Source of the DNA: Candidatus Gastranaerophilales bacterium
GTDB taxonomy: Bacteria > Cyanobacteriota > Vampirovibrionia > Gastranaerophilales > Gastranaerophilaceae
NCBI GenBank assembly: GCA_944324455.1
Contig: CALUWJ010000010.1
Span: 1-56,947, forward strand
Direction of reading: 5' to 3'
DNA: 56,947 nucleotides
The notes below the pieces were generated by a model. That model ran no database searches. It was not told the origin of the DNA and worked only from the letters and a program-made list of their open reading frames with translations. Each line of letters opens with the position of its first letter. Position 1 is the stretch's first letter. Both the position numbers and the translations under genes were made by a program. This document shows, in pieces, positions 15,782-56,947 of the stretch.

Positions 15782-15808
15782 AACCGTAGCGCGACTGCGC
15801 TAGGTTTT
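15780..15808. terminator. Hairpin at the groEL stop codon
   Basis: AAAACC-g-TAGCGC pairs with GCGCTAGGTTTT around a 4-base loop, with one bulged G. It starts in the groEL stop codon. The T-run is short (TTTT), so it may terminate groESL or be one more hairpin of the repeat island. Confidence 0.5.
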
Positions 15809-16034
15809 ACGAATGACCCCATGGTGTGTGAGCTCGTGACGGCAGTCCGTTAAAAACCTTATGTAGTTTGAGCCTAGCCAGACTTGGCTTGGCGAAAACA
15901 AATAAGGCATAAGTGTGTGAAGCAATAAGGCAGGAGTGTAGAGCTCCTGCCTTATTGCGAAAACCTTACTATGGCGACGTAAGAGTTTTGTTTTGACAAA
16001 ACTCCACAGGAGCAAATAAGCGCAAGCCGTGTGT
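15782..16034 (-). repeat. G+C-rich hairpin-module repeat island (reverse orientation)
   Basis: This gap between groEL and glmS contains no credible gene. Its reverse complement matches pieces of the 27.8-28.6 kb island. It contains a perfect 15-bp hairpin (15922-15936 with 15944-15958), a stem GAGTTTTG/CAAAACTC (15983-15990 with 15997-16004) flanked by GACGTAA and CACAGG, and a stem AGCCA/TGGCT (15876-15880 with 15885-15889). The flanks are shared with other copies while the stems differ. The open frame read on the minus strand here is not protein-like. Confidence 0.75.
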
Positions 16035-16067
16035 AAAAAAAGACAAGCTTGGAGCTTGTCTTTTTTT
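16035..16067. terminator. Bidirectional rho-independent terminator
   Basis: A-run, then AGACAAGCT and AGCTTGTCT arms with a short loop, then a run of seven T. It closes the repeat island before the glmS promoter region. Confidence 0.85.
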
Positions 16068-27104: not shown

Positions 27105-27361
27105 GCCACACTATATCTATTGACACTATATTTATAATTCTACGATTAAAAAATCTCCTAAATAAATCCTTACACCCGCATCATCTGCCTTAGGGCTGCT
27201 ATGTTTCCATCCTGACCCGATTCGAGCGATTTTGCGCCATAAAAATTTAAATTATCAACAATTTTTTAATTTTCAAATTACAAATATATATGCCTCATGA
27301 TATACTCTGCACCCGACATAAGCTTTCGGTCAAGGAGAAGCAACCCCCCGTGAAGTGTGGC
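27105..27361 (-). ncRNA. ffs: Signal recognition particle RNA, long Bacillus-type form
   Basis: On the minus strand the conserved SRP domain IV is clear: GGTCAGG, then ATGGAAACATAGCAGCC (tetraloop GGAA and symmetric loop), then CTAAGGCAGATGATGCGGG. It lies within about 27172-27225. The 5' end GCCACACT (complement of 27354-27361) pairs with the 3' AGTGTGGC (complement of 27105-27112), followed by TTTT. About 257 nt in length fits the SRP RNA that includes an Alu-like domain; the 5' segment with GGGGGGTTGCTTCTCC supports this. Its receptor FtsY is also encoded in this window. Confidence 0.9.
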
Positions 27362-27794: not shown

Positions 27795-28556
27795 TTTTGT
27801 CGGATAGGTTTGTAGTGATTTACTGCTGTCGTTTGTTCACTTAATTGTCTTTTGTGCCTCAAGGGTATTTTCAATCTGTAAAACTTGTTTTTATTAAGGG
27901 GTTATGGCATTGTTTGTAGTACGGACTTCGTGCTTTGCGCCAAGCTCCACGCTCCTGCATGTTCCTGTGGAATTTGCGCAACGCAAATTCTTACGTCACT
28001 TTAGTCCAGTGTCGGGCTGTCTGTCAAAACTCAACGTTTTGACATCACGCCCTCACATCCTTTTGCTTCTTTGTTTTCGCCTAACTCCGTCGGAGCAAGG
28101 CTCAAACTGCAGAAGTTCTCCACACACCTATGCCTTCGCTTTGCTCGCTAAGTTCGCCCTGCGAACTAGAGCTCGCTTAACTCAGGTACGGTATCCGCAC
28201 TTGGCAAGAGCTCCACGCTCCTGCATGTTCCTGTGGAATTTGCGCAACGCAAATTCTTACGTCACTTTAGTACGGACTTCGTGCTTTGCGCCAAGCCAAG
28301 TTTGGCTAGGCTCAAACTTCGAAAGGTACGGTATCCGCACTTGGCAAGAGCTCCACGCTCCTGCCTGCGTGCTCCACACACCTATGCCTTTCTCGTTTTC
28401 GCTAAGTCCAGTCGGACTATTGCTCAAACTTCGAAAGGTACGGTATCCGCTCTGTCCGCCAGTCCTCAACGGACTGCCGTCACGAGCTCCACACACCAAT
28501 GCCTTTCTCGTTTTCGCTAAGTCCAGTCGGACTATTACTCAAACTTCGAAAGGTAA
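27795..28556 (+). repeat. Large G+C-rich island of hairpin-module repeats
   Basis: No credible gene lies here. Segments repeat internally: about 27943-28003 recurs at 28208-28268; about 28185-28223 recurs at 28325-28363; and about 28373-28451 recurs in part at 28489-28555. Between them are short hairpins: GAATTTGCG/CGCAAATTC (27970-27990 and 28236-28256), TGTCAAAAC/GTTTTGACA (28022-28044), CTCC/GGAG (28085-28095), AGTTCGC/GCGAACT (28151-28167), AGCCAA/TTGGCT (28294-28307), AGTCC/GGACT (28405-28418 and 28520-28533) and CAGTCC/GGACTG (28460-28476). The flanks match between modules but the stems differ. The long open frames across the island have no protein character. Confidence 0.8.
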
Positions 28557-28656
28557 ACAAATATAAATTTTTTTGAAAATTTTCTTATTTTATTGTTATT
28601 CATTGTATAATTTAGCTATAATATGCATTGTATAGTGCTTTATTTATACAAAAATT

Positions 28657-55007: not shown

Positions 55008-56947
55008 ATGAAAATTAATGGAATATCTTCAATTCAAACAAGTAAAACTGAAAAACAAAATATAACAAATCAAAGAAGTCAAAATCCAATTTATAAAAAT
55101 CAGTATAATTTTGATACTGTATCTTTTAAAGGTAAAAAATCAAGTCTTAAACAGCGCTTAGCAGCTAAAATTGCCGCTGCTTTAGTTATGTTAACAACTG
55201 CATTGGGTATTACAACTTGTGCTTCTAAGCCAAGTTCAGATACTGACACTGTTCCTACATCTCATAGTTTAGCTGAAGATATTGACAATTCTTCTAATAT
55301 AGATGAGTTAGAAGTTGAGGATAGTGCTCCTTCTATTACCCATGAAATGAAAGAGGATGATTCTACTCCAACTAATACTGTGGTTGTGGTGAATGATATA
55401 ATTGATGAAAAAGAAGCTGTTGATCCTGATTACATAAATTATATTGACCCTCTTTATGATGAAATAGCCGATCCTGAAAATATTATAGATGGTGTTATAA
55501 GAAGCGAGCAAGCAGGTGATGCTGACCATTTTGTTGAAGAAAGCGGACTCGGTGCTAATGGCGATAAGGGTGGTGTTGCTTGGTGCGCAGCTTATGTTAC
55601 CTACATCAACGAAAATTCAGGCATAGATTTATTGCCTTGGTACGATAATATACGTCAAGATATCAATCGTGATGGCGTAAAAGATTCTTGGACAGTTAAA
55701 TATGTAAGAAAAGCAGCAGAAGATAATTGTGCAATGATTGAAGGAAATAAGGCAATTGTTGGTGATATTTGCTTTATTAATTCACACCATATGGGTATTG
55801 TATGTAAAACAGAAGACGACGGTACAATATTAGTAATTGCCGGTAATAGTGCCGATAGAACTTTAGTTTATGCAATTCAACCTCAAGATTATGATAAAGT
55901 TGCTTTTGCTGATACAACAGGCAGAGATAGAACCTATGTAAATAACCTTGAAGGCGCAGTTTACGGTAATTCAATAGATTATAATATATTTACTAAAACG
56001 CCTGATAATATACTTTCTCTAGATGAATATAAACCTTGTGATAATAATTCTAAAAGAGAATGGTATGTGCCGGGGGATGATTTTAGAGAATTTTTGGATG
56101 AAGAAATTAAATGTCCGACTCCTGAACCATCAAAACCGGTTGAAACGCCTGTTACACGCCCAACTCAAACTCCGACACAATGTCCAAGTATAACTCCATC
56201 AGAATGCCCAACACAAACTCCAACGGAATGTCCAACAGAATGTCCAACACAAACTCCAACGGAATGTCCAACTCAAACTCCAACGGAATGTCCAACAGAA
56301 TGTCCAACTCAAACTCCAACGGAATGTCCAACTCAAACTCCAACGGAATGTCCAACAGAATGTCCGACAGAAACTCCAACGGAAGTTCCTACTGAAACCC
56401 CAACGGAAATTCCTACAGAGGAACCGACAGATGTTCCAACAGAAATCCCAACAGAAGAGCCTACTGAAATTCCTACAGAAGAGCCTACGGAAATTCCTAC
56501 AGAGGAACCGACAGATGTTCCAACAGAAGAACCTACGACTTGTCCTACTTTGCCGGAGGTTGAACCCAGTGATACTCCAATAACAACTGATGAACCTGAA
56601 ACTCCTCCTCCATCTGTAACTGAAACTCCAAGTACAGATCCTTCAACAACCGAATTACCTGATACTAGTGACGGCGATATGGATGCAGAAGATGGCGGTG
56701 CAGATTTTGATGATGATGTAGAGCCATCAAAAGAACCAACAGTTGAACCATCAAAAGAACCAACAGTAGAGCCATCAAAAGAACCAACAGTAGAGCCGTC
56801 AAATCCTGACAGCGGCGATGGCGATATGGATGCAGAAGATGGCGGTGCAGATTTTGATGATGATGTAGAGCCATCAAAAGAACCAACAGTTGAACCATCA
56901 AAAGAACCAACAGTTGAACCATCAAAAGAACCAACAGTTGAACCATC
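55008..56947 (+). CDS. Large CHAP-type amidase/peptidase-like protein with Thr-Pro-Cys repeats (3' end outside window)
   Basis: An ORF open from the ATG at 55008 (AGGAG upstream) to the window end, at least 646 codons. The N-terminus [18 protein letters not shown] leads to DTVSFKGKK (F-x-G motif at 40-42). A hydrophobic segment (about 53-70) ends [10 protein letters not shown]; the Thr at -1 makes a lipobox atypical. Residues about 185-285 match a CHAP-like Cys/His fold: [13 protein letters not shown] (Cys193), [15 protein letters not shown] (His261) and VIAGNS. From about 369 a low-complexity region has repeated PTECPTQT units, then [10 protein letters not shown] units, then a 49-residue tandem repeat. 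It is probably exported and acts on or decorates the cell surface. Confidence 0.75.
56110..56530 (+). repeat. Coding tandem repeats: Thr-Pro-Glu/Gln-Cys and Thr-Pro-Glu-Glu units
   Basis: Within the CHAP-domain gene, 6- to 12-codon units reading PTECPTQT and PTECPTE alternate up to about 56375. They then change to PTEIPTEE-type units without Cys. Cysteines recur at regular spacing, which is unusual for such linkers. Confidence 0.85.
56674..56947 (+). repeat. 147-bp coding tandem repeat
   Basis: The block beginning GGCGATATGGATGCAGAAG at 56673 recurs at 56820, a period of 147 bp (49 codons). Each unit encodes an acidic [16 protein letters not shown] stretch, then three or more EPSKEPTV repeats. 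The array continues past the window end. Confidence 0.9.

Follow-up and report, generated by a model that had tools for sequence, protein, structure and literature searches.

The hairpin islands described here are probably arrays of a mobile element that is non-coding, non-autonomous, and selective in its insertion sites and in which the fold is kept rather than the sequence; it belongs to the Gastranaerophilaceae, gut bacteria allied to the cyanobacteria. The stems of this element turn over while its fold is preserved, its unit has defined ends, it prefers the 3' ends of tmRNA and tRNA genes, it has moved recently between genera, it accumulates in tandem arrays, and it has been inserted into the RNase P RNA gene, rnpB. 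The window in which the islands were found (56,947 nt) is contig C10 of a Candidatus Gastranaerophilales genome of 1.76 Mb in 40 contigs. It contains two islands, both intergenic, with a GC content of up to about 50% as against about 28% in the surrounding DNA. The sequence of island 1 matches 49 places, grouped in about 25 islands of the same genome.

Island 1 is a mosaic head-to-tail array of three kinds of hairpin, M1, D, and C (Table 1), which correspond to the modules 1, 2, and 3 that a first-pass annotation of this DNA had distinguished; all of the stems named in that annotation are present. Island 2, between groEL and glmS, consists of an alternative hairpin, half a C module, a D hairpin, a C-type hairpin, an M1 hairpin, and a terminator-like hairpin. 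A scan of the window with Rfam 15 gave only tRNA and SRP RNA above the gathering score and no family over the island. A 220-aa ORF (27904-28566) spans island 1; it is probably spurious, although annotation pipelines are likely to call it a protein.

Table 1. Hairpin islands of the window and their modules. The strand is the one that folds (the R strand), which for island 1 is probably the minus strand.
Feature	Position	Strand	Stems and remarks
Island 1	27795..28556	-	C, D, and M1 hairpins combined head-to-tail as a mosaic
C-type hairpin	27919..27961	-	arms mismatched (CAAGC/GCTCC), pairing read from the sequence; probably a recombinant
M1 hairpin	27964..27997	-	R strand GACGT-stem-CAGGA; GAATTTGCG/CGCAAATTC
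C module	28010..28056	-	GGGC/GCCC and GTCAAAAC/GTTTTGAC (28023-28043); loop TCAAC (GTTGA on the R strand); covariance-model match 70.7 bits, E 1.9e-17
D hairpin	28060..28114	-	inner stem CTCC/GGAG at 28085
D hairpin	28133..28186	-	inner stem AGTTCGC/GCGAACT at 28151
C-type hairpin variant	28187..28227	-	GAGC/GCTC; loop TCCAC
M1 hairpin	28230..28263	-	identical to 27964..27997
D hairpin	28283..28324	-	one side truncated; inner stem AGCCAA/TTGGCT at 28294
C-type hairpin variant	28326..28377	-	GAGC/GCTC; loop TCCAC
D hairpin	28388..28440	-	inner stem AGTCC/GGACT at 28405
C module	28445..28491	-	GCTC/GAGC and CAGTCC/GGACTG (28460-28476); loop TCAAC; covariance-model match 69.6 bits, E 4.2e-17
D hairpin	28503..28555	-	inner stem AGTCC/GGACT at 28520; R-strand 5' terminus TACCTTTCGAAGTTTGAG, matching the beginning of the elements next to t(m)RNA genes
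Island 2	15782..16066	+	between groEL and glmS
Alternative hairpin	15787-15802	+	TAGCGC/GCGCTA
D hairpin	15876..15889	+	AGCCA/TGGCT
C-type hairpin	15929..15951	+	GGCAGGAG/CTCCTGCC
M1 hairpin	15976..16012	+	GAGTTTTG/CAAAACTC; flanks GACGT and CAGGA
Terminator-like hairpin	16038-16065	+	

The first-pass annotation had proposed that the two arms of each hairpin change together. For M1, the arms were excised with the unpaired flanks as the sole guide (pattern CTCCTG...ACG[TC]); among 24 distinct arm pairs, with the better of two registers taken, the two arms of the same hairpin are paired in 87% of cells, as against 64% for randomly dealt arms (z 8.4). The inner stem of C gave a similar result, 92% of cells being paired as against 64% for random arms (z 5.8). 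In a gap-free alignment of 35 C copies, 93% of cells are paired, 9 of the 13 pairs of the helices have changed on both sides, and the covariation is 0.517, compared with 0.168 ± 0.016 after shuffling (500 times) and a maximum of 0.143 in slid registers; these 35 copies are kin, so that the covariation does not represent 35 independent events. The stems of D also vary with their pairing kept, at a z of 3.7 obtained from a noisy regular-expression set that includes false hits in coding DNA. The concerted change of the arms among relatives thus stands far above both the shuffled and the register-slid controls, while the loops are fixed.

The outer stem of C occurs as GCTC/GAGC, GGGC/GCCC, GTCC/GGAC, GCCC/GGGC, and GAGC/GCTC, and is mismatched in 6 of 50 copies, which are apparently recombinants. 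The stems had earlier been described as swapped; their pairing is indeed kept, but they are better read as a limited set of variants that different genomes have in common, shuffled as a mosaic. Between the two helices of C, the columns GTGA and GACA face each other, unpaired, and are invariant in 35/35 copies, an invariance that is in part due to the selection of the copies since both columns were also in the search pattern. A search with R1, a covariance model of C, does not require GTGA or GACA, and it found 22 matches in the genome of the window, all of them high-scoring (E below 1e-12 in every case). The observation made in the annotation is confirmed. The further suggestion that some force preserves the hairpin structure is supported by the covariation together with the invariant non-Watson-Crick loops.

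Which strand folds can be approached through the mismatches. Those that are conserved read C.C, A.A, C.T, and A.C on the island-forward strand and G.G, U.U, G.A, and G.U at the same positions on the R strand. Read on the R strand, C has tandem GA/GA internal loops and a GTTGA or GTGGA terminal loop; by reading, D likewise has a tandem GA/GA internal loop, and M1 has one at its base (GC-GA-CGT...CAG-GA-GC), in place of which some M1 copies have GCC...GGC. On this strand, G.U outnumbers A.C by 16 to 7 (p 0.09), an excess that favours the R strand but is suggestive only. The complete unit folds as RNA with -62.3 kcal/mol on the R strand (z -4.7) and -46.2 kcal/mol on the other (z -3.2). Folded as DNA, the R strand also does better than shuffles (z -4.5), and folding therefore does not separate an RNA from a single-stranded DNA.

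The modules share one orientation in 71 of 73 islands, in a sample consisting of stretches around matches and hence biased towards copies like those of island 1, and they succeed one another cyclically as M1, (M4), C, D. The M4 hairpin, which is optional, is nested in M1 between GGCGA and CGT, as read from the sequence. M1, C, and D are hairpins of one structured unit of about 170 nt. An additional pairing of the 3' end with the outer arm of C, which one of the folds showed, was rejected on finding that it is not preserved in the tRNA-Leu copy.

The parent form of the unit is 169-180 nt long, non-coding, and arranged on the R strand as D hairpin, C hairpin, and M1 hairpin; it begins with ACTTTTGAAGTTTGAGCC and ends with GTTCGATTTTACGGACATT, and 13 units next to t(m)RNA genes agree in their ends. 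By eye, these ends (ACTTTTGAAG and CGGACATT) are not inverted. Outside the window's genus, the copy mostly lies directly 3' of a tmRNA or tRNA gene, where the 3' end of the t(m)RNA is followed by the unit and then, mostly, by a repeat of the last 5-9 nt of the t(m)RNA. These repeats take the sequence of the target, namely ATCTCCA(TA) for tmRNA, ATGCCCA for tRNA-Leu, and TCTCCG for tRNA-Ser. In G025, the copy at tRNA-Ser has TCTCCG and that at tmRNA has ATCTCCA, the last base differing just as it does in the targets. The right end of the tRNA-Lys copy in the window's own genome shares only CCA with its target, and the copies in islands and in rnpB have no repeat of a target end. Empty tmRNA sites were found in G010, G023, G130, and G197, and one copy lies between a 23S-like sequence and the 5S rRNA in G168. 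At the hfq-like/pxpA intergenic space, the gene order is not kept in relatives, and there is therefore no comparison with an empty site at that locus.

Other, unrelated small elements are stacked at the same tmRNA end in G000, G003 (L264), G022 (L263), G058 (L274), G121 (L268), G168, and G174 (L277/L249). In G003, G022, G058, G121, and G174, each of the stacked non-coding elements ends in a copy of the tmRNA 3' end, and one type has a hairpin with a GTTGA loop. Several units are also stacked behind a tRNA-Arg gene (L009, G000:C13:1-1400), and after each of them 13-15 nt from the 3' end of the tRNA are repeated (TCCAAGCGCGCCATA).

R1 matches 46 of the 286 genomes of the order, all of them in the same family, the Gastranaerophilaceae; in the phylum, 29 of 386 genomes match, again solely in this family. 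The copies per genome reach at least 21 among the matches listed in the window's genus and often number just one in other genera. Between G002 and G124, which belong to different genera (g1 and g35), the element is 99% identical over 169 nt, whereas the 400 nt upstream, which are mostly tmRNA, are only 64% identical; this difference argues for a recent movement between genera. It should be noted that these metagenome assemblies break at repeats and that contig ends often lie inside the repeats of the islands.

The gene encoding RNase P RNA is another site of insertion. Among 25 genomes of the window's genus with a match to RF00010, in which the P3 and P12 regions were compared, one or the other is filled by modules in 15. 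In 11 genomes, including that of the window, P3 is filled with 164-382 nt of modules, a count that leaves out three rnpB genes at a contig edge or not delimited. P12 contains 121-228 nt in eight (G005, G006, G007, G008, G012, G013, G018, and G026), which have C-like and M1-like hairpins in common, although the stems differ; in an alignment of seven P12 inserts, 9 of 16 predicted pairs have changed on both sides. Both regions are short in G010, G003, G025, G023, G015, G011, and one of the two rnpB copies of G020 (n = 7). The R strand is the RNA sense in 18 of the 19 filled sites, which are not 19 independent events inasmuch as the P12 inserts may stem from a single one. As for G020 (L209, L233), P3 is empty in one rnpB copy and filled in the other; the empty copy is nearly identical to that of G003, which makes contamination of the bin likely.

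Among protein genes, of the 48 islands whose neighbouring genes are known on both sides, 44 lie between convergent or codirectional genes, and only four are flanked by divergent pairs. Between codirectional genes, 17 islands have the R strand in the sense orientation and 11 in the opposite one, which is not significant; a function in the sense strand of mRNA was rejected on this basis, and a role exerted purely at the level of RNA is weakened.

Could the covarying stems be explained without mobility? Template switching between imperfect inverted repeats is an established process in bacteria, and such quasi-palindrome correction, by copying one arm onto the other, would yield paired changes and hence perfect, changing stems without selection. 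No result of the analysis speaks in favour of it, and it would also have made the GA/GA mismatches Watson-Crick, whereas these tandem G.A/A.G mismatches between the helices are the invariant ones of the 35 C copies, and a purely mutational origin is therefore very improbable. Alternatively, the modules could be domesticated RNAs that bind a host protein (an RNase, an Hfq-like protein, or a ribosomal protein) and thereby stabilize the 3' ends of mRNAs, cause attenuation, or serve as sites of assembly, so that the covariation would reflect a function for the host rather than mobility. The strong structure with its invariant loops, the occupation of gene 3' ends with avoidance of divergent promoters, and the copies within RNase P RNA and a 23S-5S spacer are all consistent with this. 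It is nevertheless quite unlikely, given that species of a single genus have anywhere from 0 to about 20 model matches, that relatives often have empty sites, that the sense orientation at protein genes is inconsistent, and that a near-identical element occurs in different genera.

Other explanations involve mobility of another kind. The unit could be the end region of larger islands integrating at tmRNA or tRNA genes (IMEs), of which the copies would be relics or satellites and the hairpins a folded single-stranded attachment site moved by an integrase. The position directly behind t(m)RNA genes, the target-end repeats, and the stacking of unrelated small elements at one tmRNA all recall the ssrA-specific islands of Dehalococcoides (PMC3146451), and a solitary match to the right end, with neither tRNA nor element, lies in a variable region with phage-like genes in G062 (L350, G062:C1:88000-107000). 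On the other hand, no island was seen that combines an integrase with the two ends of the element; the repeats are 5-9 nt long as against 20 nt in Dehalococcoides; the arrays at non-tRNA sites and at the tips of RNase P RNA are left unexplained; and the phage, plasmid, and viral-contig collections searched contain no match to the element, which led to the rejection of a carrier of these kinds. We consider such an origin unlikely. Finally, the copies could be REP/BIME sequences that a REP-associated tyrosine transposase (RAYT) moves in the form of single-stranded hairpins, which would fit the short palindromes, the conserved unpaired flank, the complementary stem variants, and the location at gene 3' ends (PMC3733652). 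This is hardly credible, since the Y1 transposase (PF01797) has no match in the window's genome, in a search whose control was positive in five genomes, no GTAG/CGTC tag is conserved at the required place, and the arrays are head-to-tail rather than head-head dimers.

That no mobilizing enzyme turned up, Y1 transposases having been sought in the window's genome and tyrosine recombinases more widely, counts against the mobile-element reading, as do the shortness of the direct repeats (5-9 nt) and the mismatched outer stems of C. Besides two Xer-like ones, a PF00589 scan found at least one of about 185-200 aa in many genomes (e.g., G000:C19:23368-23829 and G200:C1:54036-54497). None of these short recombinases (about 190 aa) lies beside a tRNA or is linked to the elements, and G022, with 17 model matches, has only the Xer-like pair; they were therefore rejected as integrase partners. 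An autonomous version with the same right end was also sought; the solitary match in G062 is the only candidate, and by eye there is no recombinase among its ORFs. The region beside it has a helicase and a neighbour that, by eye, may be a Hachiman-type defence pair. Coding sequence resembling the variable proteins of diversity-generating retroelements was seen at L022 (G000:C17:27500-28931) and L013 (G000:C3:1-1800), with the protein repeats GLQLCDY..VWSGTV..FSVRC; it adjoins hairpin islands at contig ends.

How does the element compare with known ones? Bacterial MITEs (e.g., NEMIS/Correia and ERIC) are non-autonomous, 70-300 bp long, and form hairpins when transcribed; the element is likewise non-autonomous and hairpin-forming but, by eye, the unit as a whole has no terminal inverted repeats. 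Protein genes are the main site of Rickettsia palindromic elements (RPE), and STRR repeats, short tandem heptamers, were reportedly described by Vioque in 1997 in the RNase P RNA genes of cyanobacteria. To our knowledge, neither forms a unit of several hairpins placed at t(m)RNA ends. RPE are inserted in functional genes, which they do not destroy (in part PMC3733652). The element resembles RPE and STRR in that it resides, presumably without destroying it, in the gene for RNase P RNA, and differs from them in sequence and structure.

The closest comparison is with the REP families, which are palindromic repeats with an unpaired GTAG/CGTC tag and alternative complementary residues in the stem (Di Nocera et al. 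2013, PMC3733652); they are located at gene 3' ends, and some families have no known transposase (PMC3733652). As in REPs, the element consists of many copies of short palindromes with a conserved unpaired end and complementary stem variants, found in convergent or codirectional gaps and in mosaic clusters. A REP tag (GTAG/GTRG or CGTC) is lacking; the R strand of M1 has GACGT followed by variable bases, the CGTC of its F strand sits 3' of the stem and is replaced by ACGCACC where M4 is nested, and the C module has neither GTAG nor CGTC. Moreover, whereas REPs are single stems in head-head pairs, the element combines three different hairpins in a fixed unit of about 170 nt with invariant GA/GA loops and a GUUGA-type loop, is arrayed head-to-tail, prefers t(m)RNA 3' ends and the tips of RNase P RNA, and inhabits a genome without a Y1 transposase. 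The ssrA-specific islands of Dehalococcoides, for their part, are coding elements of kilobase size that have a serine recombinase and repeats of 20 bp (PMC3146451); the element shares with them the tmRNA 3'-end site, the repeat of the tmRNA end at the far side, and the tandem stacking, unlike them being about 170 nt long and non-coding, with repeats of 5-9 nt, or CCA only at tRNA-Lys. Taken together, these likenesses and differences make it a new family within a broad kind that is already known, the REP/BIME-like palindromic repeats, and one with an unusual fold and choice of sites. The earlier statement that no element of this kind had been described consequently holds only in part: REP palindromes with an unpaired tag and complementary stem variants are known (PMC3733652), but this family, its fold, and its sites at RNA genes are absent from Rfam and the literature searched. 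That literature, which covers few subscription journals, contained no paper on such repeats in Gastranaerophilales.

If the islands are indeed arrays of a mobile element, a protein or a mobilization process would read the fold and the loops and not the sequence of the stems, which could then drift by compensatory change. The enzyme that inserts the unit would act in trans and would most likely be a site-specific recombinase with t(m)RNA 3' ends as its targets; the arrays would grow by tandem duplication and recombination. Insertions may persist at gene 3' ends and at the tips of helices in structural RNAs because a self-contained hairpin would be harmless there. In a transcribed RNA, the R strand would be the folded one. 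A more speculative version, which we regard as distinctly improbable, is that the unit moves via an R-strand transcript whose T-arm-like end (GTTCGA...ATCTCCA) mimics a tRNA 3' end and is copied at t(m)RNA ends and RNase P loops; if true, such a movement by an RNA route would be a bacterial analogue of tRNA-related SINEs.

The element would offer a clean case of a mobile element that conserves its fold instead of its sequence, and its size of about 170 nt would help to define the minimum that a mobile element needs. The fixed GA/GA loops suggest a specific protein ligand. The filled and empty tmRNA and RNase P RNA sites in dozens of species constitute a natural experiment on the entry of mobile hairpins into essential RNAs and the remodelling of these RNAs by them, and the element may account for breaks in assemblies and changes in gene order in these gut bacteria.

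Two further observations concern the window itself. A large-type bacterial SRP RNA, barely over the Rfam cut-off, is encoded at 27106-27360 on the minus strand, just upstream of the hfq-like gene. Near the end of the window (56124-56543 and 56658-56947), there are a tandem repeat with a 12-bp period (24 register copies) and two repeats of 143-147 bp.
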